Shown here one piece after another: positions 17,907 through 57,355 of a stretch of 64,000 nucleotides of DNA. Position 1 is the first letter of the stretch. Each line of letters opens with the position of its first letter. The notes under the pieces are model-generated. The model was not told the origin of the DNA. It saw only the letters and a program-made list of their open reading frames with translations, and ran no database searches. The translations under genes and the position numbers were made by a program. Source of the DNA: Rhizobium oryzihabitans. Its GTDB lineage: Bacteria; Pseudomonadota; Alphaproteobacteria; Rhizobiales; Rhizobiaceae. The stretch covers positions 744,001-808,000 of the forward strand of contig NZ_CP048635.1 in NCBI RefSeq assembly GCF_010669145.1, written 5' to 3'.

Positions 17907-17909
17907 GGA

Positions 17910-18203: not shown

Positions 18204-18214
18204 GGCCCACGCCC

Positions 18215-21419: not shown

Positions 21420-21430
21420 GGTCGCGCTCC

Positions 21431-21712: not shown

Positions 21713-22095
21713 CAGACCAGTACCCCGCCGCCGAAGGAGAAGAAGCTCAGGAAGAAGGAGCTGGCGGCGAAGGCAATCGACAGGCCGAAAACGATCTGGA
21801 TCAGCCTGCGAAAACCGCCGCTTGTGTCGCCGAAGGCCAGCGCCAGGCCGGTGGCGATAATGATGATGACGGCGACGATCTTGGCCACCGGCCCCTCGAT
21901 GGATTCGAGGATCGACTGAAGCGGCGCCTCCCACGGCATGGAGGATCCGGAAGCATGAGCCGGCACGGCCGCCATCATCATAACGACGGCGAGCGTAGTC
22001 GGTCCCATGAGGTGCCGACGGATGCCGCGCAGAACGGACGGTGCGCACGCCTGATCCGGCGCCGTGGGCAGGATGGGCGGAACATGGGAGGTCAT
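21712..22095 (-). CDS. trbC: Conjugal pilin TrbC (VirB2-like)
   Basis: TrbC is the VirB2-type prepilin forming the mating pilus. The 127-residue precursor has a long signal region (cleavage expected near PAHA|SGSS, about residue 48) and two membrane helices (about 70-90 and 98-120) separated by a short loop, as in cyclised TrbC pilins. TrbC of RP4 is processed and cyclised by TraF, and a TraF gene lies at 28869-29414, so the same processing is likely. The start overlaps the trbB stop by ATGA. Confidence 0.93.
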   Translation of the reverse strand: MTSHVPPILPTAPDQACAPSVLRGIRRHLMGPTTLAVVMMMAAVPAHASGSSMPWEAPLQSILESIEGPVAKIVAVIIIIATGLALAFGDTSGGFRRLIQIVFGLSIAFAASSFFLSFFSFGGGVLV

Positions 22096-23093
22096 GACTG
22101 TTCTCCTTTCGGGAGTGGTTGGCGATCAGGGGAAAGGTGAGCGGAAGCGACCCGGTAATCGCCGTCGGGGTCGAGCCCTTCGACGCGGGCGAGTTCGGAG
22201 AGCCGGCGCACGGAACCGCGACCGGAGAGAACCGCCACAATGTCGATGGTCTCGGCGATCAGTGCCTTGGGGACGGTGACGACAGCTTCCTGGATGAGCT
22301 GCTCGAGACGGCGGAGCGCGCCGATGCTGGTACCGGCGTGGATGGTGCCGATGCCGCCGGGATGTCCCGTTCCCCACAATTTGAGCAGGTCGAGAGCTTC
22401 GGGACCGCGCACCTCGCCGACGATGATGCGGTCAGGCCGGAAGCGCATGGCGGAGCGTGCCAGATCGGTCAGATTGGCGATGAAATCCTTGGTGCGCATC
22501 GGCACCTTGTTCTCGGACTGGCTTTGAAGCTCGCGGGTATCCTCGATGATGAGAAGCCGATCCTGCCCCTTCGCCACTTCGGCCAGCAGAGCATTGGTGA
22601 GTGTCGTCTTGCCGGTGCCCGTGCCGCCGGCGACGAGGACATTGGCGTGCGATGCGACGGCCTCGCGCAGCAATGCCGCCTGATTGGCGGTCATCGTTCC
22701 TGCCGCAACATAGTCGTCGAGTGTGAACACCGAGATCGCCGGCTTGCGGATGGCGAAGGCCGGACCGGTGACGATCGGAGGCAGGAGACCTTCGAAGCGT
22801 TCGCCGCTGTCGGGCAGTTCGGCCGAAACACGTGGAGCGCCGGCATGAACTTCTGCGCCGACGTGGTGAGCAACCAGGCGGATGATGCGTTCGCCATCCG
22901 CGGGCAAGATGCGCTCGCCGGTGTCGGACATGCCTTCGGAGAGCCGGTCGATCCACAATCGCCCATCCGGATTGAGCATTACCTCGACGACACCGGGATC
23001 TTCCAGAAAGCGGGCGATGGATGCACCTAGCGCGGTGCGCAGCATCCGGGCGCCACGCGCAAAGCCTTCTGAATTTCGATGCGAGACTGCCAT
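22092..23093 (-). CDS. trbB: Conjugal transfer ATPase TrbB (VirB11-like)
   Basis: TrbB is the hexameric VirB11-type ATPase of the secretion channel. The 333-residue protein has an N-terminal domain with [20 protein letters not shown]. Its RecA-like domain has Walker A GGTGTGKT (156-163), an Asp box region (IIEDTRELQ), Walker B region [19 protein letters not shown] and the His box GGIGTIHAG. It leads the trb operon. About 170 bases upstream separate it from the RHH gene and presumably carry a promoter, though no clear motif was identified. Confidence 0.96.
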
Positions 23094-25743: not shown

Positions 25744-27483
25744 TTAAAGGCCGAGCCCTCTCTTGCGGCCAAAGCTCCAGTCGATGCCGCCGTCGTTACG
25801 GGCGATGCCGGAGACGTGCCGGCCGAGCTGCTTTTCCAGCGATGGAGACCACGGTACGAGCTGGAAGCCGAGACCGTCGTCGATCATCGCGTAGCGGCCG
25901 GAGGCAAGCGCGAAGCGTTGACGATAGGTGCCAGCGACATATTCGCCACTGCCAGCGCGGTTGAATGGCTGGCCCGTCTCGGTGGCGAGTTTCTCGCCAA
26001 GCGCATCGAGCTCGCGGCGGCGCAAGGTGTCGACCAGCCTGCGGGCGAACACCACGCTGAGTCCCTGCCGCTCGGCCAACCCCTCTTCGACAAGATGGTC
26101 AGCACGCCGCTCCATGGCCTGCTGCACCTCGGCGCCGAAGCCACCATCGGATAAGGAGAGCGGCTCCTTCGCGACTGCCTGTCGGTCGAGCCAGGTCGCG
26201 CCCGACGCCGAGATCTGTCGCTCGATGTCGAGATCGGAGCGAACGGCGAGTGCGACGCGGCGCTCACCGCGCGCATCATCGAATTTGCGCAGCTCGACGA
26301 TCGAGCCGGGAACGCTGTCGCCGGCAGCATCGAGGTCGGGCAGCTTGATGTGATGGGTGCGTCCATCCACGCTGTCGACGACGGCATAGGCCGAGCCTCT
26401 CAGCTCGTCGTCGAGACCGCGATCGACCAGGCGACCGATGATCGGCTCATCGAGGCTTTCGCCTGCCAACACATAGTTGGCGGAGCCGCGCTCGATGCCG
26501 CGGTCCGTCAGCGCCTTGTGCATCCGTTTGATGATGTCGCCGCGTTCGCCGAGTTCGCGCAGCACCGCCTCGGCCTCGGGCTTGATGAACCATTGCGAAT
26601 GGCCGACCTGTCCGGCCAGCCCAAGGACTTCCAGCTTGCGCAGCCGTCCGACCTTCAGGGCATGAAACTCGTCGGGCTGCCGATCGGCTCGCGGTGCGAG
26701 ATCGACGATGCCGGTTTCTCGTGCATCCCGGACAAGCTGGCGGTCGAGCTGGGTCCAGCGCTCCGATTCAATCTGGCGCTCCAAAGTGCGGCGGATGTCG
26801 AGGTCGGTGCGCGGCCCCAGTTCCTGGGTGATGAGATCGCGCGCCCGGTCACGGATCCCTTCCTTGATGTAGTCACGCGAGATCACAAGATCCCGGCCGT
26901 CGTCGCGGACGCCGCGCACGATCAGGTGGACATGGGGATGCTCGGTGTTCCAGTGATCCACCGCCACCCAGTCGAGCCGAGTACCGAGATCCTTCTCCAT
27001 CTGCCCGACGAGATCGCGGGTGAAGGATTTGAGGTCGGCCATTTCCACGGCGTCGTCCGGCGATACGATGAACCGGAAATGATGCCGGTCATCCTCGCAG
27101 CGTTCGGCGAAGGCGCCTGCATCGGCGTTCTCGGTTCCCGGCCCGAACAGGCGGGCCTTTTCCCCGTCACGGGTCACGCCCTCGCGACGCAGATAATTGA
27201 GATGGGTGCCGAGCGGCGCAGTCCGGGCGGAATGGCGCACGACACGCGCCTTGACGACGGCGCCGCGCGAGCGGGACGAGATCAGGCGATTGGCCTGAAT
27301 GCTGGCGCGCTGGCCGTGACCGAAGCGCGAGCGGTTGCCGGAGACGACGCGGCCGGAGCGAGACACGCCGCCGCCGGCCTTCTTCGCCGCGGCGAGCGCC
27401 TGCGAAATGAAGGACCGCGCCGACTGCGCCCGGCTGGACCGGATGCACCCCGGTCGGACGCGGAACTCGCGCTCATCGGCCAT
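25744..27483 (-). CDS. rlxS: Relaxase (VirD2/RlxS type with DUF3363 domain)
   Basis: This enzyme should nick oriT and stay bound to the 5' end of the transferred strand. ATG 27483 is chosen (MADEREFRVRPG). The basic N-terminus leads to the relaxase domain, with LGTHLNYLRREG near the candidate catalytic tyrosine, HHFRFIVSP and the metal-binding HPHVHLIVRG. The C-terminal half (about 250-579) is the DUF3363 domain found in RlxS-type relaxases. Total length is 579 residues. The region directly upstream contains repeats suited to an oriT. Order relaxase-traG-trb matches Tn4371-like elements. Confidence 0.92.
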   Translation of the reverse strand: MADEREFRVRPGCIRSSRAQSARSFISQALAAAKKAGGGVSRSGRVVSGNRSRFGHGQRASIQANRLISSRSRGAVVKARVVRHSARTAPLGTHLNYLRREGVTRDGEKARLFGPGTENADAGAFAERCEDDRHHFRFIVSPDDAVEMADLKSFTRDLVGQMEKDLGTRLDWVAVDHWNTEHPHVHLIVRGVRDDGRDLVISRDYIKEGIRDRARDLITQELGPRTDLDIRRTLERQIESERWTQLDRQLVRDARETGIVDLAPRADRQPDEFHALKVGRLRKLEVLGLAGQVGHSQWFIKPEAEAVLRELGERGDIIKRMHKALTDRGIERGSANYVLAGESLDEPIIGRLVDRGLDDELRGSAYAVVDSVDGRTHHIKLPDLDAAGDSVPGSIVELRKFDDARGERRVALAVRSDLDIERQISASGATWLDRQAVAKEPLSLSDGGFGAEVQQAMERRADHLVEEGLAERQGLSVVFARRLVDTLRRRELDALGEKLATETGQPFNRAGSGEYVAGTYRQRFALASGRYAMIDDGLGFQLVPWSPSLEKQLGRHVSGIARNDGGIDWSFGRKRGLGL

Positions 27484-27630
27484 GGCGCAACTCCGCAATG
27501 TGCAAAAGATCGCGCAGAAACAGGGTGTTGGACTGCTTGCGAACATTGCGGCAAAGCCGGACAATGTGCAAAAGGGGCCAGAAACCTAAACAAAAACAAC
27601 CGCCCAACCGCCGCGCAATGTGCGCCCTTT
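27484..27630. other. Candidate oriT / relaxase operator region
   Basis: The gap upstream of the relaxase holds three + strand copies of CAATGTGC at 27496, 27562 and 27616. The first two extend to CAATGTGCAAAAG followed 5-7 bases later by AGAAAC. A perfect 9-base inverted repeat CCGCAATGT / ACATTGCGG lies at 27493-27501 and 27543-27551. The third copy forms a small palindrome, GCGCA-ATG-TGCGC. Direct and inverted repeats next to a relaxase gene are typical of oriT, but no nick site can be assigned from the sequence. Confidence 0.5.
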
Positions 27631-28485: not shown

Positions 28486-28821
28486 TCAGTCCTCCTTCCG
28501 CTTCTTCGACGGCGGGTTGGTGTGCAGGCCCCAGGCGGAGCCGTCGTCACCGGCACGGAAGAGGTTTGCGCGAAGCGTGCCGCCGAACAGCGGGCTGTAG
28601 ATCTCGACGGAGACGAATTCGCCGGCGCGGTCGCCGACATGCGACCAGCCAGCGCCGATATCGAGACCTTCCTCGTCGCCGAGCAGAACGCGGTAAGCAG
28701 GGGCATTCTTTGCTTCCGAAGGCTCGGCCGGAACGAAGGTGATTTCCTCGTCGATGCCGAGCGCCCTGAAACGCCCTTTGAAGCCGGATTGCGTGCGGGT
28801 GAAATGTCCAATCTGAGCCAT
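28486..28821 (-). CDS. DUF736 domain protein
   Basis: A 111-residue cytoplasmic protein with the family opening MAQIGHFTRTQSGFKGRF and an all-beta pattern ending in a Lys/Arg-rich tail. DUF736 proteins are common in ICEs and conjugative plasmids of Alphaproteobacteria, near traF and single-strand DNA functions, and their role is not known. ATG 28821 is preferred to ATG 28827 because AGGAG then lies 9 bases upstream rather than 3. No defect is seen. Confidence 0.9.
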   Translation of the reverse strand: MAQIGHFTRTQSGFKGRFRALGIDEEITFVPAEPSEAKNAPAYRVLLGDEEGLDIGAGWSHVGDRAGEFVSVEIYSPLFGGTLRANLFRAGDDGSAWGLHTNPPSKKRKED

Positions 28822-28868
28822 GCTCATGGTCTCCTGTGTTGTGCGGCAAGGTTGCGAAACTTGCGCCG

Positions 28869-29414
28869 TCACCGCGTCGGCGCGCGCCAGACGAAGCGGC
28901 CTTCGCCGTCCTCGTCGGTGTAGAGAGGGATTGCCCGGCCGATCACGGTGGAGGCCGGAAGCGGCCCGAAATAGCGGCCGTCGAGACTGTCGCGGACTTC
29001 CCAGTTCATCAGGAAAAGCTCGTCATCCGCGACGACGCGGCAGCCCTGCCAGATGGGCAGCGCGCGGCCGAGGCGATCGCGGTCGAGCGCTTCGCCCATC
29101 TCGATCCCATCGACCGTGATCAGGTCGCGGCTGCGGCACACGCGCTGACCGGGCAAGCCAAGGACGCGCTTCAGCAGCGGCACGCCGCGGCCGACATAGC
29201 CGCGCTCCACCATGAAGTCGGCGAGCGGTTCGGGCGGCATGACGGCGACCAGTTCGGGCACCTCCAGCCGATCGGCTGGCGCGATGGTGTAGAAGCCGAT
29301 CGGCGCGCTTTCGGTGGCGTTCCAGATCAGCTTGGTGGATGTCGGGATGAACGCAGCGATGGCGACGCCCATCGCCGCGAAATACGTCACCATGACGTAG
29401 CCGAAGCGGGTCAT
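28869..29414 (-). CDS. traF: TraF, conjugal S26-type peptidase
   Basis: TraF is a signal-peptidase-like protease that matures and cyclises the TrbC pilin in RP4-type systems. The 181-residue protein has an N-terminal membrane helix (about 5-24). The catalytic-serine region is NATESAPIGFYTI (Ser37) and the lysine region is GVPLLKRVLGLPGQ (Lys82). The S26 box GYFG-like DGRYFGPLPASTVIGRAIPL is near the C-terminus. It overlaps DUF2840 by 4 bases (ATGA). Order DUF2840-traF is typical for this ICE family. Confidence 0.94.
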   Translation of the reverse strand: MTRFGYVMVTYFAAMGVAIAAFIPTSTKLIWNATESAPIGFYTIAPADRLEVPELVAVMPPEPLADFMVERGYVGRGVPLLKRVLGLPGQRVCRSRDLITVDGIEMGEALDRDRLGRALPIWQGCRVVADDELFLMNWEVRDSLDGRYFGPLPASTVIGRAIPLYTDEDGEGRFVWRAPTR

Positions 29415-29932
29415 CGGCCGATCTCCCGCCGCTTGAGCCACGCCTGATGACGCTCCATCGTGTAGGAGCGTGGAGTCTCGCCGGACTGCATTCGGTGAGC
29501 GATGTGGCGCCAGTGATCGGGGGCGACGTCGCAGGCGTCGATGCCGACACGCTCGATCGCATCGATGTGGCGCAGCACGTCCTCGACCTTGGGCCAGCCC
29601 TCGATCTTGAGCAGAATCTCGCCACCGGGACGCACGAAGGGCAGCGTCTGATAGGTTTCGCCCGGCTCGACGGCGCGCACGATGTCGATGCGTGATATGA
29701 TCGTGCCGAAATCGTTGCCGGCCCAGCGGGCGAAGGCGAAGATGCTGTTTGGGCGGAAAGAAATGACGCGACGGCGGCGATCGAGGATCAGTTCGCCGGA
29801 TTCCCGGCCGAACCTGATCCAGTATTCGACCTTCTTCTCGATCCATGTCAGCTCGACATGGGTCATATCGTCGGTAGAGCCTGCGGACGGCAACGGGCCG
29901 CCGCGCAAGCGGGGAGCCGCATTGCCGGTCAT
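29411..29932 (-). CDS. DUF2840 domain protein
   Basis: The 173-residue cytoplasmic protein has the family core VELTWIEKKVEYWIRFGRES, FAFARWAGNDFGTIISRIDI and a closing RSYTMERHQAWLKRREI. The 22-residue N-terminal extension before MTHVEL is kept because its start codon overlaps the preceding stop by ATGA. DUF2840 genes lie next to traF in many ICEs. Function is unknown, and a DNA-binding or transfer accessory role is only inferred. Confidence 0.9.
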   Translation of the reverse strand: MTGNAAPRLRGGPLPSAGSTDDMTHVELTWIEKKVEYWIRFGRESGELILDRRRRVISFRPNSIFAFARWAGNDFGTIISRIDIVRAVEPGETYQTLPFVRPGGEILLKIEGWPKVEDVLRHIDAIERVGIDACDVAPDHWRHIAHRMQSGETPRSYTMERHQAWLKRREIGR

Positions 29933-30180
29933 GAGGGGTCTCCTTGGGTTGGCGGGAATTCACGAGCGAAGAGATCGCGCAGCATGTCGGCGACGGTGAC
30001 GCCGCGCCGGAAGGCAGCGATCTTGATCCTGCCGCGCAGCTCGGGCGTCACGTCGATGGTCAGCCGGGCGGTGAAACCGCCGGCGTCACCATTGCGGAGC
30101 GGCGCGTCGGCAGCCCTGATCCAATGGTCGGGATCGGCAGGCCGGGAGGCGAAGCCTTTGCGGGCGGGACGCTTGCTCAT
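29929..30180 (-). CDS. Small ribbon-helix-helix protein
   Basis: An 83-residue basic protein whose C-terminal half (TARLTIDVTPELRGRIKIAA, then FRRGVTVADMLRDLFAREF) fits a ribbon-helix-helix DNA-binding fold, as in small partition or CopG-type proteins. It overlaps both the methyltransferase upstream and DUF2840 downstream by 4 bases. With parA 750 bases upstream in the same operon it could act as the centromere-binding or regulatory partner of ParA. A direct test is needed to tell this from a simple repressor. Confidence 0.78.
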   Translation of the reverse strand: MSKRPARKGFASRPADPDHWIRAADAPLRNGDAGGFTARLTIDVTPELRGRIKIAAFRRGVTVADMLRDLFAREFPPTQGDPS

Positions 30181-30935
30181 GGCGCGGCCCTCCCGTCGAA
30201 CGGCAGCACCGATGCGATCCGGGCGCGCGCCTTCTCCGCCATGTCGGGTCTGATCTCGCAGCCGAGATAGCGTCGGCCGGTAAGCCGGCAGGCTTCACCG
30301 GCCGCGCCCGATCCGGCGAACCAGTCGCCGACAAGCCCGCCCTCCGGGCAGCTTGTTCGGATCAGGATTTCCATGAGCGCCGACGGTTTCTCGGTCGGAT
30401 GGATGGCACGGCCGTGGCAGTTTCGCAGGTAGATGACCGAGCGCATGAGGCGCGGCCCGCCGTCATGGCTGACATAGTGACCGGCATCGATATGGCCGGT
30501 GTGCGGCGGGCGCATCTTGCGCCGCACGGTGCGCGCCGTCGCATCCGGCGTGGTCTGGACGTCGTTGTAGATGTCGCGCCAGGCGGTCTCGGCCGGGTAG
30601 AACTGGACGGCCAGTTCATGCACGCGCTTGAAGCGGTCCGCGTGGAACGACGATCCGTTCTGCTTCTCCCAGACGATCTCCTGGGCGATCTGCAAACCGG
30701 CATCGGCGAACTGGTCGGCGGTCGCCATGAAATGGCGCAGCGAGCCGAATACCCAGAGCGAGCCGGTGGGTGTGAGCGCCACGCGAGCGAGCGTGATCCA
30801 GTCGGCGACGCGACGATCCCAGGCAAGCGATGTGTCGCCGTAAGGGGGATCGGCCAGGATCAAGTCGAACGGGCCGCGTGCCGGCATGAGATCGCGGCAA
30901 TCGCCGGTTAGCACGGTTTCGGTGAGGACTGTCAT
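30177..30935 (-). CDS. Orphan DNA methyltransferase (N4/N6, beta-class order)
   Basis: The 252-residue protein has the catalytic DPPY motif near the N-terminus (LILADPPYGD, about 27-36) and the AdoMet-binding FAGSG motif near the C-terminus (VGDWFAGSGAAGEAC, about 214). This motif order is seen in beta-class N6-adenine and N4-cytosine methyltransferases. No restriction endonuclease gene is adjacent, so it is an orphan. It sits inside the parA operon with 4-base overlaps on both sides. Modifying element DNA against host restriction is a likely but inferred role. Confidence 0.9.
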   Translation of the reverse strand: MTVLTETVLTGDCRDLMPARGPFDLILADPPYGDTSLAWDRRVADWITLARVALTPTGSLWVFGSLRHFMATADQFADAGLQIAQEIVWEKQNGSSFHADRFKRVHELAVQFYPAETAWRDIYNDVQTTPDATARTVRRKMRPPHTGHIDAGHYVSHDGGPRLMRSVIYLRNCHGRAIHPTEKPSALMEILIRTSCPEGGLVGDWFAGSGAAGEACRLTGRRYLGCEIRPDMAEKARARIASVLPFDGRAAP

Positions 30936-31585
30936 GATGCGGCCCTCCCGATTTCGAGATGCTCGATCTCGGCGGCCAGCGCCGCGATCTCGCGCGTGGC
31001 CGGCGTGTCGTCGTCAAGTTCGGATGCGAGGCGACCGGATTGCGCGGCAACGGCAAAAGCGATGCGCTGGCCGATAGTGGTGGTCAGCACCGGCGGATCG
31101 TGATCGGCGAGTGTCTCGGCTGTCTCGCGTGCGAGCACGGTGCGGGCGCCGCAGCGGTTCAGCACGAAACGTGCGGCCAGTTCCGGCCGGTAGATGAGCG
31201 CCTCGGAGAGCAGCGCCAGCATCTCGGCCGAGGCCCAGCCGTCGAGCGGCGACGGCTGTACGGGGATCAGCACGAGGTCGGCGGCGAGCAGCGCCGAGCG
31301 CATGAGGCCGGCGACCCTCGGTGGCCCGTCGATGACGATATGATCGACGTTGCGGGCAAGTTCAGGCGCCTCGCGATGCAGCGTATCGCGCGCCAGGCCG
31401 ACGACGCCGAACAGGCGCGGAAGGCCCTCACGGCTGCGCTGCTGCGACCAGTCGAGCGCCGAACCCTGCGGATCGGCGTCGATCAGGGTGACGCGCTTGC
31501 CGCGTGCCGCCCATTCCCCGGCGAGGTTCAGCGCCAGCGTTGTCTTGCCGACGCCGCCCTTCTGATTGAGGAGCGCGACGATCAT
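30932..31585 (-). CDS. parA: ParA-family ATPase
   Basis: ParA-type Walker ATPase of partition or element maintenance, 217 residues. Deviant Walker A is LLNQKGGVGKTTLALNLAGE (about 5-24), the A' motif is VTLIDADPQGSALDW and Walker B is HIVIDGPPRV. The N-terminal helix-turn-helix of large ParA proteins is absent, so this is a small ParA. Its ATG (31583-31585) overlaps the TGA stop expected for repA by one base if the repA frame break is repaired. It has a GGGAGG-type ribosome binding site. Confidence 0.93.
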   Translation of the reverse strand: MIVALLNQKGGVGKTTLALNLAGEWAARGKRVTLIDADPQGSALDWSQQRSREGLPRLFGVVGLARDTLHREAPELARNVDHIVIDGPPRVAGLMRSALLAADLVLIPVQPSPLDGWASAEMLALLSEALIYRPELAARFVLNRCGARTVLARETAETLADHDPPVLTTTIGQRIAFAVAAQSGRLASELDDDTPATREIAALAAEIEHLEIGRAAS

Positions 31586-32753
31586 CAGCGTCCTCCCGGT
31601 GGATCGAGAGGAAGCCGAGGTATTTCGGGATCGGATGCAGGAGTCTCGGGGAGATCGGGGGCCGGTCGGGGGCGGACGGCCTGGCCGAAACGCTCTTTTT
31701 CGCGGCTATGCTGAGGCTTCTGGCAGCGTCGCGGATGAGGTTTTCCACATCGCGCCCGCGCTCTTTAAGGTTAGATTCTTGGTTAGACTCTAAGTTAAGG
31801 GCGCGATTTCGTGTTTGATTTCCGCGCGTTACCCCCTGTTTGGGTTCCTGATAGCACGAGCCTCCGGTTCCCGATAGCACGATAGTCCGGGTTCCCGATA
31901 GCACGAGTCTATCCACAGGTTTTCCACAGGTCGGAGTGGGCTCGAAAGCGAGCAGCGTGCGCCCGCCGATCTCGGTCTCAAGGGAGAGCCTGTAGCCCGG
32001 CAGTGGCTGGCGCCGGATGATGTCGCGCAGTTCGAAGGCGAAGCGCTTGAACGGCGACAGGCTGCCGGATTTCTGATGGAGATGGCGGAAGTCGAAACGC
32101 CAGCCGTCTCGCTGGCGGCCGCCGTGCTTGCGCACCAGGCGGTAGAGCCAGCGGTCGAGGCCGCCCGTCAGATCGAAATAGGCGCGGTCGATGGTCAGCA
32201 CGAGGGCATCGTCGATAACGGCCTGGTAGAACCAGTCCGGGACGATCATCTCGATGCCCTCGGGACGGCCGTTGCGGTCGGTGCGCTCCTGCCATTCGTT
32301 GATCCACGAGAAACGATGGCGACGGCCCTCGGCCGGCTGTCGGATCGAGGTGGACACCGTGGTCGATTGCAGCCGGTCGAGTGCTGCCTTCAGGCGCTGA
32401 TAGTCGCGCACGCTGGTGCCACGCCCGACATAGGAAAGGATTTCGTATGGCGTGGCAGCCATCAGCCGGGAAGTGCGAAGCCCGGCATCGCGGGCTTCGA
32501 CGATCTGGCTTGCCGCCCAGATCAGGATATCGGCGTCCCAGATGGTCGCCATGCCGTGATCGGGGACGGCCTCGACCCGGATCGTCACATTGCCGGCGAC
32601 GAAATCGATCGGCGCGACGCGATGGGTCTTGGAAAGGGAGAAGAAGGGATAGGCCATGAGATCCTGCGCGTCTCGTGGCGCGAAGTCGCCGGGGAGCGCC
32701 CGGAACAGATCGAGTTGTCCACGCTCCGAGAGGGACCGATGCCGCGCCGCCAT
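31585..32753 (-). CDS. repA: RepA-like replication initiator, C-terminal frame break
   Basis: A replication-initiator-A family protein with the conserved opening GQLDLFRALPGDFAPRDAQD, MAYPFFSLSK and HRFSWINEW segments. Tn4371-like ICEs carry such a gene before parA. As given, the frame runs past the parA start into out-of-frame parA sequence to 31428. One extra base in either of two G runs on the + strand (31657-31661 or 31668-31672) gives a natural ending, PEIPRLPLDPPGGR, and a TGA at 31585-31587 overlapping parA. Coordinates assume that repair. Whether the element replicates as a circle is inferred from the family. Confidence 0.82.
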
Positions 32754-32771
32754 TCGAAAAACCGGCCGCGA

Positions 32772-33053
32772 TCAGCGTGCGTAGCGGCCAGGCTGCGGAA
32801 CGGCGGGCAGCGCATGGCGCTTCGCCGGCAGCACCTGGCCACGCGGATCGGAGGTCGAGGTGACAGCGCCAAGTGCGGCCCAGGCTTCAAGATCGTCCAC
32901 GGCGTAGACGACGCGCCCACCCAGCTTGCGATACGAAGGACCAGTCCCGTAGGTCCGATGCTTTTCAAGGGTTCGAGCGGAGAGGCTGAGGAATTCAGCG
33001 GCCTCCTTGGTGCGAAGGAAGCGCGGCGGCAAAATGACGGGATCGGGTCGCAT
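32772..33053 (-). CDS. rdfS: AlpA-like helix-turn-helix protein, probable excisionase (RdfS-like)
   Basis: A 93-residue protein with an AlpA/MerR-type winged helix: LRTKEAAEFLSLSARTLEKH, then GPSYRKLGGRVVYAVDDLEAW. It lies 18 bases upstream of repA in the maintenance operon. In the ICEMlSymR7A family the AlpA-like gene in this neighbourhood encodes the recombination directionality factor RdfS. That assignment here is inferred from fold, size and context. Possible binding sites lie beside the integrase (57143-57190). Confidence 0.75.
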   Translation of the reverse strand: MRPDPVILPPRFLRTKEAAEFLSLSARTLEKHRTYGTGPSYRKLGGRVVYAVDDLEAWAALGAVTSTSDPRGQVLPAKRHALPAVPQPGRYAR

Positions 33054-33191
33054 GGGGCGGGCCTCCGTGGGGTTGCGGGCGGCGGCCGCGGATTAGCGGC
33101 GGACGGCGACCACGGTGGCGGAGGGAAGCCTTCAGGGGGGATGGGGAACTAAGGGGGACGAAAATCCCCACCCCCGGCTCACCAAAAACAG

Positions 33192-33954
33192 TTAGGATCG
33201 ATGACGGTGACGCAGCAATTGGAGATAACCGCCGCTGGTCATGGCGAAACTACCTTCGACGAGCCCTATGACGGCATCGCGCAGAGAAGATGTTTTCCAT
33301 GGTTCGGCGGCGATACGCGCATCACCATAGATGGCGATCGCGATTTCGCGGTAAGTCGCCCCGTCCAGGCGCGCGTCGAATGCGCGCAGCATCTGGCGGA
33401 TACGCCGCCGGCGCTGCGACGTCAGCCGCATGTCTGTGGGGACACGACGGCGAAACAGCATCGCGCAAAAGCGGCTCAGCGCATGAAGCCGATCCAACGC
33501 GGCGGCATCGAGGATCAGAACAGCGACAAGGATGCCGCCGGATGGGGCATCGATACGGGTGACTTCGAGGCGTTCACCGGCAACGTCGATCCGCAGATGG
33601 AGAGCATCGATTCGGTCAAAGGAGTGCGCGCGGATGAAATCCTCAGCAGCGGCGGAATCGCCTGAAGCGAGGGACATCCTGTGGAGTAGAATTGCCCCAG
33701 GGTCGGCATTCGGGGTCCAGAAGATAGGATGATCGAGTGCTGTGTGCCGGGGATCGGCGGCGAAAGCACAACCCCCATTGTTCGGCGACGGCACGAGCCT
33801 GATCGCTATCAAGTTGCCCGCGCGCAGCGAGGCTCTCGTAGGCTTTCCGGTAATCCAAGTTTCGCCGAAGGAATTCCCAAGCAAGCTCGGACGTCGTCAA
33901 TCGATCAATAAAGTCATAGTCGGCGTCGGACCGCCAGTCATGTTGTTCAGGCAT
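33192..33954 (-). CDS. fseA: FseA-like activator, DUF6499 + DUF2285 joined by a +1 frame change
   Basis: Two overlapping frames make one natural protein. The first (from 33954) encodes MPEQHDWRSDADYDFIDRL to AVAEQWGLCF, a DUF6499-type domain. The second, entered one base forward at TTTC (33765-33762), continues AADPRHTALDHPIFW and a DUF2285 domain (RRRRIRQMLRAFDARLDGAT) to a stop at 33192. The joint product is about 253 residues. At UUU-C the Phe tRNA can slip to UUC, a plausible +1 site. In ICEMlSymR7A the activator FseA is made by programmed +1 frameshifting of exactly this domain pair and turns on rdfS. Without frameshifting a short variant ending at 33643 is made. Confidence 0.8.
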
Positions 33955-34081
33955 CCCCTGACCTCCACATACGCTTTACGACTGTGGGCAATGCAAGGGC
34001 TACGATCTCAAGTTGCTTTGGTTTTGGGAACAACGAAGGTGGCGTAACGTGATGCGGGTTCTGCACCACCTGGATCGAAGG

Positions 34082-34345
34082 TCAGTGAAGGGCGGCGCGC
34101 ATCAGGCTGGAATAGCCCTGCTCGGCCATCCACTTCGCCCGAGCCAGATGCGAGGCGTAGATTCGATGGGCGCGTTCTGCGTCTTTCCTGGGATCAAGGC
34201 GCAAGACCAACTCGGCAACCTCCTGCCAATCCGCGCCATCGGCCTCCGCATCGAGAAGACGCAGATACAGCTTTAGATGCGCCCGGTCGTAGGCGGTGAG
34301 CTCCGCGTCAGCCGGCGGATGGTCCATGAGCAAGTTTTTGATCAC
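34082..34345 (-). CDS. qseM: Small DUF2285-like protein, QseM-like antiactivator
   Basis: An 87-residue acidic, helical protein (ELTAYDRAHLKLYLRLLDAE, DWQEVAELVLRLDP, HLARAKWMAEQGY). Similar small proteins are annotated DUF2285, and in ICEMlSymR7A the DUF2285 protein QseM is the antiactivator of FseA. Location 128 bases upstream of the FseA-like gene supports this. The start may be GTG 34345 (GGGGA nearby) or ATG 34327. Role is inferred from family and context. Confidence 0.7.
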   Translation of the reverse strand: MIKNLLMDHPPADAELTAYDRAHLKLYLRLLDAEADGADWQEVAELVLRLDPRKDAERAHRIYASHLARAKWMAEQGYSSLMRAALH

Positions 34346-34369
34346 ACGATCCCCACTACTGAACCCTAT

Positions 34370-34381
34370 CCAATGTATTGG
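34370..34381. promoter_or_regulatory. Palindrome upstream of the QseM-like gene
   Basis: CCAATGTATTGG, a perfect inverted repeat with a 2-base centre, lies about 25 bases before the QseM-like start. It is a candidate operator for the neighbouring Xre repressor. No binding data are available, and 12 bases could occur by chance. Confidence 0.4.
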
Positions 34382-34458
34382 TGCTTGTTAACGGATTTGT
34401 GATGGCAAAACAGAGGTGGAAGCCGCGAATACGACGCCTCCCTACAGTCGGGACAGGA

Positions 34459-34695
34459 TTAGAGAATTTCGCGAACAAGCATAACTCCCACACCACGATC
34501 GGAATTGAGGAAGACGATGCCGTTGTCTTCGAAAGACCGACGAACCTGATCGCGTGTGGTCTCGTATACCTCGAAGCCGCTTTCGGATTCGAGGCGTTTG
34601 AGGGCGGTCAATGATACACGGGCCTTGTCGGCGAGCGTCTCCTGCGTCCAACCAAGCAACGCGCGCGCGGCCCGAGATTGTCGGGCGGTGATCAT
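34459..34695 (-). CDS. Xre-type helix-turn-helix repressor, QseC-like
   Basis: A 78-residue protein with a helix-turn-helix at about 5-40: QSRAARALLGWTQETLADKA, then VSLTALKRLESE. The second half resembles the short beta/helix tail of small Xre proteins. Start ATG 34695 has GGGAGG 9 bases upstream. It sits one gene from the FseA-like activator and next to the QseM-like gene, the setting of QseC in ICEMlSymR7A, which represses qseM. Unlike R7A as I recall it, both genes here point the same way. Confidence 0.78.
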   Translation of the reverse strand: MITARQSRAARALLGWTQETLADKARVSLTALKRLESESGFEVYETTRDQVRRSFEDNGIVFLNSDRGVGVMLVREIL

Positions 34696-34705
34696 GCATG
34701 ATCAC
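34688..34705. promoter_or_regulatory. 18-bp perfect palindrome over the Xre start codon
   Basis: GTGATCATGCATGATCAC is a perfect palindrome covering the ATG (34693-34695) and abutting the GGGAGG ribosome binding site of the Xre gene. It is an obvious autoregulatory operator candidate. As RNA it could also fold over the start codon. Confidence 0.6.
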
Positions 34706-34895
34706 CTCCCACATGGACCTACGCACATTCCAAAACTACGGCTATTTTAGTCGCTCTTGCCGTGAAAATCCAGAAAAACCCTATTTGACTCAGCGAATCC
34801 GGCGAACGGCCACGAACTGATTCGGTTTCGGTAAACGCCGGCCTGGTGGCCCATGCGGGGCCACCGCCCGCAGGCGGTGGCCAACGCCGCCCGGC

Positions 34896-35060
34896 TCAAG
34901 CGAACGGGTCTATCTCGTTGATGACGGTATCGTCTTCTCCGTCGTATTCGGCGGCGGGCATCACGCTGAGCGTACCGTCGCCGGCGCGGAAGACGACGAT
35001 AGTGACCATCAGGGTGGCGGCGAGGCTGAAGGCGAAGGCGTGGGCATCTGCAAGGGACAT
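34896..35060 (-). CDS. 54-residue conserved-type small protein
   Basis: A 54-residue ORF from ATG 35060 with an AGGAG binding site 7 bases upstream. The product begins MSLADAHAFAFSLAATLMV, has one hydrophobic helix-like segment (about 8-24) and ends in an acidic tail (EYDGEDDTVINEIDPFA). Codon pattern and the strong ribosome binding site support coding. It recurs, from memory, as a small hypothetical protein in related ICEs. It is preceded by a strong hairpin like the one before ssb. Function is unknown. Confidence 0.7.
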   Translation of the reverse strand: MSLADAHAFAFSLAATLMVTIVVFRAGDGTLSVMPAAEYDGEDDTVINEIDPFA

Positions 35061-35080
35061 TTTCCGGCTCCTGTTTGGAG

Positions 35081-35098
35081 GCGGGGACCATTCCCCGC
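35081..35098 (-). promoter_or_regulatory. Leader hairpin of the 54-residue gene
   Basis: On the + strand GCGGGGA-CCAT-TCCCCGC is a perfect 7-bp hairpin. On the mRNA strand it reads GCGGGGAATGGTCCCCGC. It lies 20 bases before the start codon, just before the ribosome binding site. The ssb leader carries a matching stem-loop with the same TGGTCC centre. Confidence 0.6.
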
Positions 35099-35123
35099 TC
35101 GACAGGCGCCCGATGTGTTTTGG

Positions 35124-35215
35124 TCCCGGCCGCGATCACCGCCGAGGCGAAGCCTCGCGCGGCGGCATGCTTCGCATAGTCCGACCCTTCATGGGTTGAT
35201 CGCGGAAGGCCGGGA
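35124..35215. other. Cloverleaf-like structured element
   Basis: A closing stem pairs 35124-35138 with 35197-35215 (a GCGATCA/TGATCGC inner part and a CCCGGCC/GGCCGGG outer part with a bulge). Inside are three further stems: CCGCCG/CGGCGG (35139-35144, 35160-35165) holding CGAGGC-GAA-GCCTCG; ATGC-TTC-GCAT (35167-35177); and ACCC-TTCAT-GGGT (35184-35196). It lies upstream of the 54-residue gene in the direction of transcription. It could be a folded leader RNA, a single-strand DNA structure, or a small RNA. Confidence 0.5.
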
Positions 35216-35498
35216 TTGAAACCAAGGTTGCGTCTCAAAGAGCGGGGTGGTCTTTGCCGCCGTAGTCGGAAAATGATTTGCCGATGCCTTTCGCTGTGCC
35301 TTGGTTTGTTGGCCCCGTTCCGGTGTCGTTCGTCATTTCGACGGCCGCCGCCAGCACTGTCGGATCTGGGCAGGATAAGATGGCGAGTTCCTTTGCCATC
35401 CGTGGATCAGGCCGCGAAGCAGGAATACGGCACGATCCATAGCGTAGTCAGCGTTCGAGTCAGACCTGGCCGGGAGAAGAGGATGGGTTTGGGAAGGA

Positions 35499-35637
35499 GA
35501 AGGAGGGAACCGTCTCTCCTTCCCATGGGAGGGAGTTTGAGGGAGGGGCTTGCCTTTCCCTCATGGGGTGAGCGACGAGAGGGGTCGGCGCAGCCCCCCT
35601 TTCGTCAGTGCTGGCGGCCGGTCGATCCGGCTGTCAG
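35499..35637. repeat. Hairpin-rich segment, copy 1
   Basis: This stretch shares its order of short blocks with 36470-36605, including an 18-base block (35616-35633) that differs by one base from 36581-36598. It contains several CCTTCCCATGGGAGG-like and CCCTCATGGGG-like stems. The two copies flank the 181-residue gene. No coding potential is apparent in the wider gap 35216-35654. Confidence 0.5.
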
Positions 35638-35654
35638 CGCTCCCGCAGAGGCAA

Positions 35655-35686
35655 AGACCAGAGGCGGCGAATGCCGCCTCTGGTCT
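35655..35686 (-). terminator. Strong hairpin after the 181-residue gene
   Basis: AGACCAGAGGCGGC-GAAT-GCCGCCTCTGGTCT forms a perfect 14-bp stem just after the stop at 35692. On the - strand it is followed only by a short TTT, so it is a terminator-like or mRNA-end hairpin rather than a textbook intrinsic terminator. Confidence 0.6.
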
Positions 35687-35691
35687 GCGTC

Positions 35692-36237
35692 TCACGGCTT
35701 GCTGTCGCAGTCGTCACCGTTGACGAAGACATAGATTGCGGAAAATTCCTCGCCTTCATCGTAACCATGCAGGTCTTCGTAGCATTCCTCGTCAATGTCG
35801 TCAGGATCGTGTTCAACGGACGACGGAGCCGATGTAGGGTATTCCTGCTGCGGTAGTTCCAAGCCGATGGCATCGATAGGAATGCCGAGCTTTCTTTCGA
35901 TCCTACCAAGCAGAAGGCGAAACTCCTTCATCTCGCAGGGAACATGATCCCAAAGGTCCGAGCCTTTCGGCTCGCGCCAGTAATATTCATAGTTTTCGCG
36001 ATGATTGCCGAAATCCTCGTCCAGTTCCGCGACCTTGGCCGGATCGGTATTGAGGATGAAGCGGCGTTCCGCTGCCAAAGCCTCGCGGGTGTAGGTGATG
36101 AATTGTGCGAGGAAATTTTCGAGGTAGTCATGCAGCGCCCGTTCGAGAGCCGTGTTGCAATCGAGACGATTGACCAGAACGTCGATCCGAAGCGCGGCAG
36201 CATCGGCATACATCTTGAGAAAATTTAATTCAGACAT
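35692..36237 (-). CDS. Hypothetical 181-residue acidic protein
   Basis: Starts MSELNFLKMYADAAALRIDV with an AAAGGAGG binding site 7 bases upstream. It is helical for about 130 residues (ERALHDYLENFLAQFITYTR, ELDEDFGNHRENYEYYWRE), then has an acidic C-terminal tail rich in Asp and Glu (EHDPDDIDEECYEDLHGYDE). It has no membrane helix and no known domain. It lies between ssb and the small-protein gene in the leading-region-like block, flanked on both sides by hairpin repeats. An acidic, possibly DNA-mimic tail is noted, but function is unknown. Confidence 0.78.
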   Translation of the reverse strand: MSELNFLKMYADAAALRIDVLVNRLDCNTALERALHDYLENFLAQFITYTREALAAERRFILNTDPAKVAELDEDFGNHRENYEYYWREPKGSDLWDHVPCEMKEFRLLLGRIERKLGIPIDAIGLELPQQEYPTSAPSSVEHDPDDIDEECYEDLHGYDEGEEFSAIYVFVNGDDCDSKP

Positions 36238-36242
36238 GGAAG

Positions 36243-36268
36243 CCTCCTTTGCGTTATCTGACGCAAAG
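36243..36268 (-). promoter_or_regulatory. Hairpin covering the ribosome binding site of the 181-residue gene
   Basis: CTTTGCGT-TATCTG-ACGCAAAG (36247-36268) is a perfect 8-bp stem. Its proximal arm overlaps the AAAGGAGG ribosome binding site (36243-36250 on the + strand) of the gene starting at 36237. Folding would hide part of the site, so translation may be switched by temperature, a protein or an RNA. Confidence 0.55.
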
Positions 36269-36469
36269 GTGTCTGCATTGGCGACCCAAGGGGTCAAGGA
36301 TCGCAACGCGACCGGCGGAGCCGGCGAGTGGGGAGCCGAAATGCGTTAGCATTTTGAGGGGACCACGAAGTCCTTTACGCCGCAGGGGCGAATGCGACAA
36401 TCGGAAGTCAGATAGAGAAGCCCCGCGGCGCCGACCAGGCGCCGCGTCCGTATGGGCTGGGGAGGTTTG

Positions 36470-36605
36470 GAGGGGGTGGACCACCCCTTCATGGGTGGGG
36501 GTTCAAGGGGCGGGGCTCGCCCTGCCCCTTTCGGGGAGAGTCATGAGAGGGGCGGCTTTCCCCTTCTCATGAGGAGATCCGGCCGGTAGATCCGGCTGGA
36601 GGGCC
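36470..36605. repeat. Hairpin-rich segment, copy 2
   Basis: Diverged copy of 35499-35637. It contains stems CCACCC-CTTCAT-GGGTGG and TCATGAGAGGGG...CCCCTTCTCATGA and the shared block at 36581-36598. The wider gap 36269-36748 shows no convincing gene on either strand. Confidence 0.5.
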
Positions 36606-36748
36606 TATCCATACAGTCCGAGGTCACGATCACCGACAAGCGGAGGGAGCATAGGCACCCCTCTCTTCGCGGCGTCTGCGCTCAGCTTCCCCGAGCAGAG
36701 GCGGCATTATTTGGCGCGGAAGCGGTGGTGTTCTGCCGCGAACATGGG

Positions 36749-36774
36749 AAAACCCGGCGGCTTGCGCCGCCGGG
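36749..36774 (-). terminator. Intrinsic terminator of ssb
   Basis: On the - strand CCCGGCGGC-GCAA-GCCGCCGGG is followed by TTTT. It lies 16 bases after the ssb stop and is a classic rho-independent terminator. Confidence 0.85.
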
Positions 36775-36789
36775 CCTTTGGCACCCCGC

Positions 36790-37191
36790 TCAGAACGGGA
36801 TGTCATCGTCGAAATCGCGCTGTCCTTCACCGTTCTCGGTCTGCTTCGCTCGCGTCAGGAACGTGACCGACTCGGCGATGATCTCGGTGCCGTAGCGGTC
36901 ATTGCCCTGCTGGTCGGTCCATTTCGTGTAATGGATGCGGCCCTCCACCAGTACCTTCATGCCCTTACTGCAATGCTCCTGGACCGTCTTGCCAACGCCG
37001 TTGAAGGCGATGACGCGATGCCATTCGGTATCCTGGACCCGGTAGCCGTTCTCGTCTCGGACAACCCGGCCTTCCGAATAGCGTGGGCGCGAGGTTGCGA
37101 GCGTGAAGTGGGTGATGCCGGTGCCGCCCTGGGTAGTGCGGGTTTCGGGGTCCTGGCCGATGTTGCCGGCAAGAATGGCGATGTTTGTCAT
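36790..37191 (-). CDS. ssb: Single-stranded DNA-binding protein
   Basis: The 133-residue protein starts MTNIAILAGNIGQDPETR and has a normal OB-fold with WHRVIAFNGVGKTVQEHCSKG and VLVEGRIHYTKW. It ends in the acidic tip DFDDDIPF that recruits partner proteins. It would protect the incoming single strand after transfer. A moderate GGAG lies upstream, and a strong hairpin precedes it at 37213-37231. An intrinsic terminator follows. Confidence 0.96.
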   Translation of the reverse strand: MTNIAILAGNIGQDPETRTTQGGTGITHFTLATSRPRYSEGRVVRDENGYRVQDTEWHRVIAFNGVGKTVQEHCSKGMKVLVEGRIHYTKWTDQQGNDRYGTEIIAESVTFLTRAKQTENGEGQRDFDDDIPF

Positions 37192-37212
37192 TTTCGTATC
37201 TCCGTTGCGCCT

Positions 37213-37231
37213 CGGAGGGACCATCCCTCCG
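37213..37231 (-). promoter_or_regulatory. Leader hairpin of ssb
   Basis: CGGAGGGA-CCA-TCCCTCCG is a perfect 8-bp stem about 22 bases before the ssb start. The transcript reads CGGAGGGATGGTCCCTCCG. Its loop and position match the leader hairpin at 35081-35098. Confidence 0.6.
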
Positions 37232-37899
37232 ACGAGACCCGGCCAAGGCCGTCGGGAGATGCTTGCACTGGCGCTTTCAAGCGGCAGCCTGACCCGTAAG
37301 GCCCGGAGTGGGGCGGGCAGGCGCTTGCGCCAACTCGGTCCGGAGCCGCGCGGGTTGCGGTCAGAAACCGAACGGTCTTAGGGGATCAGTCAGTCGGAGG
37401 GATTGGTGCCTTTGAGAGCACAAACGGAGATATGCGGCGCAAACAATCGTCCTTGCCGGTAACAGCGTGGTGCCAGGCTCCGTGCTGAAACCCTTATCAG
37501 ATCGGTGCGCCTGCAAGAGCCTCTTCACCCGTGACCTCATGCCGCCAGCCGGAAGGCCGGCAGTCCGGACGTAGCCTTAACGGCTATCGGGTTTCAGGCA
37601 CATGGCGCCGTTCCCGGCTCGCCGGCTGAAGGAACGATCCAGTAGTATTGAGAGACGGAAACATGAAGGTGTTCGCGGTTGCCCCCGCTATACGGATACC
37701 GGACCGATGCGGAAGGTGCTGACCGTAACATCGCGCGGGATTGTCGTTCGGTGACTGCCTTCCCCTGCCGGGCGAAGCAGGCCGCGAATGAGGATGACGA
37801 ACACCGCGCTGATCTGCCATCTCTCATCTGGGCGGGTGACAAAGAAACGGCGGCGCAAGCCGCAGGTTTTTTCCATGGAAGCAGCAGGTCGCGCCCGCT
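37232..37899. other. Gap without a convincing gene
   Basis: About 670 bases. Only short or Ser/Arg-rich frames are open here and none has a good binding site plus natural protein sequence. Visible features are inverted repeats such as GCCGGAAGGCCGGC near 37550 and a short + strand hairpin GCGGC-GCAA-GCCGC followed by TTTTTT at 37850-37872. The last could end a transcript on the + strand, but no gene was found for it. Confidence 0.5.
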
Positions 37900-38316
37900 T
37901 CAGCGCGAGAGGATCGCCGTACCGAGGGCGTTGAGATTGAGCAGCGCCGCAACGCCAATGAACAGGCCACCGGCTCCGCCGAGCAGGTTCAGCGCAACCG
38001 TGGAATCGATGAAGTTCTTCGTGACCCCGTGGACGAGCGCGTAGCCGGCGATGGTCGCGGGGATCGCGAAGACAGCAAGCGCGATCAGCCGCAAGGCCGG
38101 GTTCTTCGCAAAGCCCACAACGGCGATGACCAGCGCCACGGAAAGCAGCGCCGCGCCAATGGCAGCAAGCCCCGACATCAGGAAACCGGCCTCCATTCCA
38201 TGAACATATTGGAAGGCGGAAAGCCCGACCATGAAGGGCAAGGCATAGATGGCGAAGTTATAGGCGATCACGCACATGGCGATCGTCAGGGAGATGACGA
38301 GCAGGATCAGGGTCAT
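37900..38316 (-). CDS. Four-helix membrane protein of unknown function
   Basis: The 138-residue protein has four predicted membrane helices (about 3-22, 27-45 with the following segment, 52-70, 78-96, and a C-terminal hydrophobic stretch 105-130). The opening MTLILLVISLTIAMCVIAYN is strongly hydrophobic. There are no charged catalytic motifs and no known domain. It is isolated between long gaps in the leading-region-like block. It might act in surface or entry exclusion, but nothing in the sequence shows it. Confidence 0.72.
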   Translation of the reverse strand: MTLILLVISLTIAMCVIAYNFAIYALPFMVGLSAFQYVHGMEAGFLMSGLAAIGAALLSVALVIAVVGFAKNPALRLIALAVFAIPATIAGYALVHGVTKNFIDSTVALNLLGGAGGLFIGVAALLNLNALGTAILSR

Positions 38317-38481
38317 GACAGCCTCCAGATGAACGGTTGAGGATCACGTCAGGCTGCCAGGAGATACGCTCCGCCTGCGACTATGCCAGTTCACCGTTGC
38401 TGCAAGGATGCTCCATTTGAGCCAGATCAATGGGATTTCGTCAAGTATTGGCGGTTGAAACAGCCGCCGAGCGGCGGCGCT

Positions 38482-39420
38482 TTACGCGCCGCCGTCGAAC
38501 TTCATGACGGGAATGCCGAGATTGCGGGCCTTGTCCTCGAGATTGCCCTGGATGCCGCCACCGCCGAAGATGAGAACGCCGACCGGAATGACTTCGAGCA
38601 TGGTATCGTTGCGCTTGAAGGGCGCCTGTTTCGACGAATACTTCTTGAAGTCCGGTTCGAAGGCGATCTGCGTCACCTTGCGGATGCCTGCCCAGTCGGA
38701 AGCGATCTTTTCGGCGCCTGTCTTGGCGCCGCCGTGGATGAGCACCATATCAGCATGCTTTGCATGGACCTGATCGAGCTTCGCCCAGATCAGGTGATGG
38801 TCGTTGAAGTTCGTGCCGCCGGAGACGGCAACCTTCGGTCCGGCGGGCAGCAGCACCTCTTTCTCCGCTTGGCGCTTCGCAGCAAGGAAGTCGCGGCTGT
38901 CGATCATCGCGGCGGTCAAGTTGCGGTGGCTGATTTTCGAGCCGTTGCGCGGCCGCCAAGCGCTGCCGGTGTGGTGCTCGAAGGCTTCTGTGGCGACTTC
39001 ACGGAAGAGTTCCATGATGTTGCGCCGCTCGATCATGGTCTGCCCCTCCGCCGTCAGGCGTTCGAGTTCGACCGACTTCACCTCGCTGCCATCCTGTTCT
39101 CTCTGAAGGCGGCGCTGTGCCTGCTCGTTGTCGTCAAGCTCGCGTTCGACCCGGCTGGCGGCGCGATGGAAGAGATTGACGGTTCCCCAGAGCAGCTCTT
39201 CGAGATCGGGTTCGAGGCGAGTGTCGCCGAGTGTGGCGATGAGGGCGTCGAAGATGTCTGCGACCGCGGCGGCGACGGTATTGCCCTCCGGCAGCGGTCG
39301 AGGATCGGGTTCGTCCTGAAACGGACGCCAGCCGTAGAGCTGGAGTTCCGTGAGGACATGATCGGTGGGAGATGAGGCGTGGACCGGCTCGAAACCTGCA
39401 TCATCGTCTTCGTTCGTCAT
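38482..39420 (-). CDS. DUF2493 (SLOG-like) protein
   Basis: 312 residues from ATG 39420 (MTNEDDDAGFEPVHASSPTD). The N-terminal half is helical. The C-terminal DUF2493 domain (about 195-312) has KVAVSGGTNFNDHHLIWAKL, MVLIHGGAKTGAEKIASDWA and GVLIFGGGGIQGNLEDKA, a Rossmann-like nucleotide-binding pattern of the SLOG superfamily. Such proteins are common in ICEs and phages. Their ligand is unknown, with nucleotide derivatives suspected. A 328-base gap with a very long inverted repeat lies upstream. Confidence 0.88.
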   Translation of the reverse strand: MTNEDDDAGFEPVHASSPTDHVLTELQLYGWRPFQDEPDPRPLPEGNTVAAAVADIFDALIATLGDTRLEPDLEELLWGTVNLFHRAASRVERELDDNEQAQRRLQREQDGSEVKSVELERLTAEGQTMIERRNIMELFREVATEAFEHHTGSAWRPRNGSKISHRNLTAAMIDSRDFLAAKRQAEKEVLLPAGPKVAVSGGTNFNDHHLIWAKLDQVHAKHADMVLIHGGAKTGAEKIASDWAGIRKVTQIAFEPDFKKYSSKQAPFKRNDTMLEVIPVGVLIFGGGGIQGNLEDKARNLGIPVMKFDGGA

Positions 39421-57309: not shown

Positions 57310-57355
57310 CTTGCCAAGGTTGGGGTCGAGGGTTCAAATCCCTTCGCCCGCTCCA
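57310..57355 (+). other. Attachment site: 3' part of tRNA-Gly(GCC)
   Basis: The piece begins CTTGCCAAGGTTGGGGTCG (anticodon loop with GCC), has the T arm GGTTCAAATC and ends in the acceptor CGCCCGCTCCA. The 5' half of the tRNA is missing: the bases before it do not pair in the anticodon stem. This is the duplicated core left by integration into the 3' end of tRNA-Gly(GCC); the complete tRNA should be at the other end. The piece itself is not a working tRNA. Confidence 0.9.

Follow-up and report, generated by a model that had tools for sequence, protein, structure and literature searches.

Introduction

FseA, the excision activator of ICEMlSymR7A, is produced by programmed +1 ribosomal frameshifting, and such shifting is reported for about 61% of 4709 homologues spread through the proteobacteria (PMC10359603). 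The occurrence of the WGL codons as UGGGGG and the binding of QseM to DUF6499 have also been published (PMC10359603), and further precedent for the FseA frameshift circuit is given in PMC5009743. The Rhizobium oryzihabitans gene described here resembles FseA (msi172-msi171) of the Mesorhizobium japonicum ICEMlSymR7A in that DUF6499 and DUF2285 lie in overlapping frames with a +1 relation (PMC10359603). It would represent a known way of keeping transfer rare, and is therefore a well-supported new example and not a new kind of system. What is added here is codon-level evidence, a control provided by single-frame relatives, a description of the cassette and of the limits of the ICE, and a negative result on the link between split genes and qseM.

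Organization of the split fseA gene

The gene occupies positions 33192–33954 of the minus strand of the window, i.e. the whole 64,000-nucleotide stretch of DNA that was analysed. It starts with the ATG at 33954, which is preceded by GGAGG. Its N-terminal half (33763–33954, minus strand) matches DUF6499 (PF20109, E 3.7e-21) and is translated in frame 0 as MPEQHDWRSDADYDF...AWEFLRRN...AEQWGLCF, ending at the TTT codon at 33765–33763. Skipping C33762 leads to the next frame, AADPRHTALDHPIFW..., which is open to the stop at 33192. This +1-frame C-terminal half (33192–33761, minus strand) consists of a middle part and a DUF2285 domain (PF10074, E 8.9e-32). The putative slippery site TTT-C thus spans 33762–33765 on the minus strand, with TTT as the final frame-0 codon and C as the skipped base. 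The initial annotation had described the two halves in overlapping frames and a TTTC at 33765–33762; the Pfam matches, the +1 relation on the minus strand and the exact positions agree with both statements. The Shine-Dalgarno-like stretch TGGGGGTT (33770–33777, minus strand), with GGGGGU upstream of the TTT, was absent from that annotation. It lies within the WGL codons, and six bases separate its G run from the TTT.

Without a shift, frame 0 continues for 39 more codons (the tail at 33643–33762, minus strand) to a stop that ends at 33643. The resulting product of 103 residues holds the entire DUF6499 domain (Pfam match to residues 6–65). Among 215 split genes, the length of this frame-0 tail varies from 1 to 236 codons, with a median of 21. 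The codon that precedes the TTT is TGC in this gene, and the commonest one among split genes is CGA. The gene carries the features of the FseA family: a DUF6499 domain with AWEFLRRN, an adjoining DUF2285 domain and a +1 relation beside WGL written as UGGGGG.

Conservation of the frame break

DUF6499 loci were gathered from the family, class and phylum of the window and from named genomes, and duplicates were removed. Of 176 judged pairs of N- and C-terminal halves, a set skewed toward relatives of the window and PF20109 hits, 141 show the +1 relation and 33 a single frame, with two in +2 (this gene counted). The addition of a second class and two families gave a wider set, enriched for long open frames, in which 222 of 315 distinct paired genes are in +1, 90 in one frame and three in +2 (this gene again counted). 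The additions comprise 57 new loci and 80 fetched places (54 with open frames of at least 230 and 26 others), the latter 80 taken from a longer list that was itself capped. Twenty-one N-terminal halves of the wider set have no detected DUF2285 partner, five of them with fewer than 700 bases downstream. Seven split genes without the WG motif were excluded from the slip-site count, which leaves 215. Random one-base errors are expected to give +1 and +2 breaks equally, so that 222 versus three speaks against error.

Substitutions between this gene and its relatives peak at third codon positions, in frame 0 before the TTT and in the +1 frame after it. This holds for all nine usable relatives (ten had been chosen, one of which, L036, is a duplicate). 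In comparison with L035, substitutions before the TTT affect 9/58, 5/58 and 26/58 of codon positions 1, 2 and 3, and after it 37/190, 32/190 and 97/190, respectively. Furthermore, the region of about 10 kb at 28764–38950 recurs in Rhizobium subbaraonis with 99.95% and in Camelimonas lactis with 99.45% identity, and both contain the same slip site. The presence of a near-identical segment with the same site in two other named genomes makes a sequencing error very unlikely. By its similarity, the segment also suggests recent transfer of the ICE among different hosts.

With the read-through product as query, 280 protein matches were obtained at E up to 1e-10, and 120 of these were listed. Among those listed, eight of the best nine by E-value (P0002–P0010) are a DUF2285 domain alone. 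The ninth, P0002, comes from a single contig of 3,752 bases (source ena). The initial annotation had held that close relatives with an uninterrupted frame at this place would speak against the shift. P0002 is such a relative, with both domains in one frame at 90% identity, but it arrived at this state by the loss of 16 residues that removed the entire slip site. P0011–P0033, also among the matches listed, are single-frame proteins with both domains, 38–44% identical and mostly 252 residues long (sources ena, jgi and lgn, one also ncbi). A tree of the C-terminal halves (n = 303, nine of 312 genes being left out as gappy or duplicate) requires at least 19 changes between the split and single-frame states. 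The arrangement has therefore switched repeatedly, yet it is kept across large groups. Two single-frame fseA relatives, L266 and L281, have retained an upstream qseM-like gene. As read by eye, their length change falls inside the slip element, which suggests that they lost the shift recently.

The slip site as a nucleotide element

The consensus of split genes at the slip is TGG-GGG-TTG-NNN-TTT-Y. A comparison with FseA homologues, proposed in the initial annotation, places the frame break at the same codon: of 215 split genes, 210 have the TTT at its usual position, three have it one codon away and two lack it. TTT-Y is found in all 137 split genes with a WG motif, at the usual codon in 134 and one codon later in three. 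The codons of the site are far more frequent there than elsewhere in the same genes: TTT at the slip in 137/137 vs 310/1007 Phe codons, GGG in 96/137 vs 270/2115 Gly codons, TTG or TTA in 93/124 vs 482/3812 Leu codons, and CGA in 69/75 vs 442/4214 Arg codons.

Kinship inflates the p-values of such comparisons (to about 1e-58), and the gene set was therefore thinned. Below 50% mutual identity, 76 split genes remain, with TTTC in 66, TTTT in six, a displaced site in two and AGTC in two. Below 70%, split and single-frame genes can be compared directly: GGG occurs in 85/127 vs 11/49, CGA in 61/66 vs 2/14, TTG or TTA in 79/116 vs 7/39, and TTT among Phe codons in 122/122 vs 6/19. The slip element is mostly missing from the single-frame relatives, which form a natural control. 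The duplex energy with the anti-Shine-Dalgarno sequence is −9.6 at the site of this gene, and at the WGL codons of 127 thinned split genes it averages −8.04 against a background of −1.61. Single-frame genes still average −5.97 at the same codons; the WG codons themselves thus supply part of the anti-Shine-Dalgarno strength. No downstream RNA stimulator is seen in the fold energies of segments of split genes. The 60 bases that start six bases after the site have a mean fold energy of −16.99, and later segments are more stable (−17.89 to −19.62). The segment just 5' of the site, which includes the G run, has a mean of −22.54, and the one preceding it −15.57.

Two +1 split genes, L236 and L352, have AGT in place of TTT and retain TGG GGG TTG CGA. 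They may have decayed, or their shift may take place while CGA occupies the P site. Ribosomes read CGA poorly, and there are Ty3-like shifts that involve no slippage. A scan of viral contigs for the TTT-less site gave no match. For the common site, such contigs yielded 18 stretches, which may well be no more than chance provides (an estimate, not a computed value). A blastn search of plasmids with L236 found seven records with 66–76% DNA identity, and a tblastn search of plasmids with the N-terminal half found 42 records. The stability of the E-site codon is reported to affect +1 shifting, and the limited tests described in the same paper did not identify it as the main cause of a switch between shift directions (PMC6321510). 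E-site stability could be the reason for the selection of CGA; the fseA of the window has TGC at this place.

Neighbourhood of fseA

Six genes follow each other on one strand in the order HTH_3 (qseC-like), qseM-like, fseA, rdfS-like, repA and parA. The qseM-like gene (34082–34345, minus strand) encodes a lone DUF2285 domain (PF10074, E 2.4e-8) that matches R7A QseM (PDB id: 7UQT, E 1.3e-18), and its product is likely an antiactivator, as judged from sequence similarity. This product has a net charge of −2, whereas the C-terminal 80 residues of FseA carry +7. These two genes are the only DUF2285 loci in the whole genome. The HTH_3 gene (34459–34695, minus strand; PF01381, E 2e-5) is called qseC-like by position only, a weak assignment. 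Downstream of fseA, the rdfS-like gene (32772–33053, minus strand) encodes an HTH_17 protein (PF12728, E 1.6e-9; RdfS, PDB id: 8DGL, E 1.5e-9) and, by analogy with R7A, is likely the target of FseA. It is followed by a gene of the replication initiator protein A family (31428–32753, minus strand; PF10134, E 8.5e-91). The final 158 bases of the repA-like open frame (31428–31585) also belong to the parA-like gene, and a gene of the DNA methylase family (PF01555, 30177–30935) lies after parA.

The inverted repeat TGGGGA-N17-TCCCCA is located between fseA and rdfS (33142–33170, minus strand). It occurs once in the window, against zero copies expected from shuffles, although the pattern was drawn from the sequence itself. 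Its spacer is 17 bases long, and published FseA boxes have 15–16 (PMC10359603). An alignment of the region (15 relatives chosen, 13 aligned) separates two clades. In the clade of the window, both arms are exact in four of five aligned sequences, and L034 has one mismatch. The second clade has TGTCGA-N15/16-TCGACA at the same place in eight of nine relatives, L080 being the exception. The two arms have changed together between the clades, as expected of a bound inverted repeat. This repeat is a probable FseA box. The FseA-like identity given in the initial annotation holds: the break in frame coincides with the +1 site conserved in the FseA family, and the qseM- and rdfS-like neighbours and the box-like repeat fit the ICEMlSymR7A circuit.

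Limits and content of the ICE

A tyrosine integrase gene (55837–57111, minus strand; PF13356, PF00589) marks the right end of the element. Beside it, at 57311–57355 on the plus strand, is the right attachment repeat, a 3' remnant of tRNA-Gly(GCC). Apart from one mismatch, this remnant is the same as the 3'-terminal part of an intact tRNA-Gly gene (C4:722161–722235; 18161–18235 of L359). The tRNA-Gly(GCC) repeats delimit an element of about 79.1 kb that extends 21.8 kb beyond the left edge of the window. A tRNA-Met near the integrase was considered as attachment site and rejected, as it has no repeat of at least 15 bases within the window; there are two 78–82% matches elsewhere in the genome.

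The conjugation genes are found on the minus strand. They include an RlxS-like relaxase (25744–27564), which scores 583.5 bits with NF041267, below the cut-off of 850, and above cut-off with PF11843 and PF03432, and the TraG coupling protein (23795–25714; NF010450, 1225 bits). A block at 14831–23093 contains VirB8, TrbL, TrbE/TrbK, TrbC, T2SSE and CagX families, as assigned by Pfam to all six open frames searched. One open frame of 1215 codons (17910–21557) matches TrbE/TraG P-loop families and, over its last part, TrbK; these are usually separate genes. By its integrase, conjugation genes and flanking attachment repeats, the element is an ICE. Among its cargo are an RND-type efflux system (scoring below cut-off with the named pump models) and a phosphoketolase at 1548–10914 of the window, and, outside the window, an acetate kinase (7512–8690 of L358, PF00871). 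No LuxI-type synthase was found on the ICE. The only one in the genome search is on another contig, C6, and an R7A-like autoinducer synthase is thus not seen on the ICE.

Split genes and qseM

In the first set, a lone DUF2285 gene lies within 1 kb of 108/135 split genes and 2/39 single-frame genes. An earlier count with 6-kb flanks, in which duplicates were still included, gave 64/71 vs 0/22. The first tree-controlled test, with six pairs, gave 4.2 in the same direction, 0.1 in the opposite one and 1.7 without difference. In the wider set, which was partly chosen for long open frames, a qseM-like gene lies within 1 kb of 175/215 split and 22/88 single-frame genes (nine of 312 genes with short flanks are omitted from these counts). 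The corresponding tree-controlled test has 12 pairs, with 2.1 vs 1.0 and no difference in 8.9, which means that the raw link mostly reflects lineage. The proposal that the split gene and qseM form a functional pair was rejected, since the link is lost in this wider controlled test. DUF2285 was also searched genome-wide in 28 genomes with single-frame genes and 28 with mostly split ones. Among the former, G472 has a lone DUF2285 that adjoins the gene, and G265 has a short fragment.

Proposed mechanism and alternatives

The DNA itself shows the two halves and the relation of their frames, the conservation of the nucleotide element, the neighbouring genes, the inverted repeat and both ends of the ICE. 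With a probability of about 0.93, fseA is a gene in which a +1 frameshift yields a minority of full-length activator that would switch on rdfS and be blocked by QseM. Most ribosomes would translate DUF6499 and then terminate in frame 0. A minority would pause with UUU in the P site, and base-pairing between the GGGGGU just upstream and the anti-Shine-Dalgarno sequence of the 16S rRNA would favour this pause. Re-pairing of the Phe-tRNA with UUC, one base on, would then extend the product by DUF2285. The complete FseA would attach to the inverted repeat in front of rdfS and thus turn on excision and transfer, a step that QseM would block by binding DUF6499. The rate of the shift may limit transfer, as proposed in the initial annotation. 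The occurrence and the minority character of the shift, the slip step, the binding of FseA, the action of QseM and the effect on transfer are modelled largely on R7A. Several points stand against this reading: the close single-frame relative P0002; L236 and L352, which have no TTT; TGC as the codon before the TTT; a G-run spacer of six bases and not three; the box spacer of 17; and the 21 unpaired N-terminal halves.

One-base frame breaks are a common sequencing error, and P0002 shows that single-frame relatives occur. That the break results from a sequencing or assembly error, or that the gene has decayed, is nonetheless extremely improbable. The identical site is found in independently assembled genomes, 222 distinct genes share the same +1 relation, both frames show constraint, and the neighbouring genes are open and match their families. 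It is also very unlikely that the halves are separate proteins, acting independently or assembling without a frameshift, and that their overlap is a matter of gene packing. Such an arrangement would suit the complete DUF6499 of the unshifted product and the existence of lone DUF2285 proteins such as QseM, and the C-terminal frame offers candidate starts at 33884 (TTG), 33812 (TTG), 33794 (GTG) and 33677 (ATG). None of these starts, however, has a clear ribosome-binding site at the usual distance (by reading), the codons of the junction are fixed as nucleotides, and 90 relatives fuse the same domains in one frame. In PMC10359603, no genuine DUF6499 was found to lack a neighbouring DUF2285, yet 21 N-terminal halves are unpaired here.

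A different course of the shift itself would lead to the same protein: the +1 step could occur one codon earlier, with the peptidyl-tRNA staying in place, the first U being skipped and Phe-tRNA entering at UUC. Split genes, unlike single-frame ones, strongly conserve CGA at that codon, GGG is commoner with CGA (48/61 vs 37/66, thinned set), and L236 and L352 retain TGG GGG TTG CGA without the TTT. Moreover, the G run ends three bases from this codon, which is the spacing of prfB (PMC12421855). Against this, the codon is a different one in 95 of 213 split genes (TGC in this gene), nearly all of which keep the TTT; only two genes lack the TTT, and these may be decayed. A step at the earlier codon is improbable, and slippage on UUU remains the preferred course. 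The preferred reading can be extended by a doubtful further role, in which the unshifted product serves as a QseM sponge that shields the few full-length activators, the slip site setting the ratio of sponge to activator. If this were true and the product stable, many unshifted copies would soak up QseM. The location of the slip at the very end of DUF6499 and the unconserved tail fit such a role; the proximity of split genes to qseM gives it no support once relatedness is allowed for.

Comparison with known systems

The slip site is kept as nucleotides: a Shine-Dalgarno-like run, Leu and often Arg codons that are rarely used in the rest of these genes, and then UUU. The synonymous changes suggested by the survey are concrete tests of the bases that drive bacterial +1 shifting outside prfB. 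Annotation splits or mis-starts such genes, and the main activator of many mobile elements may therefore be overlooked.

In prfB (release factor 2), too, a Shine-Dalgarno-like G run precedes the slippery codon in the P site, and the shift is +1 (PMC12421855). Unlike in prfB, there is no stop codon at the fseA shift, the slip codon is UUU and not CUU, and no feedback of the product on the shift is known. The spacing from the G run to the slip codon is six bases in fseA and three in prfB (PMC12421855). The UUU CGC of this gene also resembles the UUU_CGN +1 motif of plant amalgaviruses (PMC5052127). These viruses have eukaryotic hosts, and, unlike in their motif, CGN follows UUU in only 62 of 134 FseA-type sites. 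RovC (PDB id: 6XZ5) shares PF10074, the family being named after it, and its match to the protein of the window is not significant (E 0.23).

The similarity to R7A FseA extends to AWEFLRRN, to WGL as UGGGGG, to the QseM and RdfS partners and to an inverted repeat upstream of rdfS (PMC10359603). The arms of the box differ from those of relatives, and its spacer differs from both relatives and the published spacing. The insertion site is tRNA-Gly here and tRNA-Phe in ICEMlSymR7A (PMC10359603). Unlike in R7A, no LuxI-type synthase was found on this ICE, and qseM, fseA and rdfS are together on one strand. On an ICE without a detected autoinducer synthase, the FseA switch is thus present as a compact qseM–fseA–rdfS cassette.
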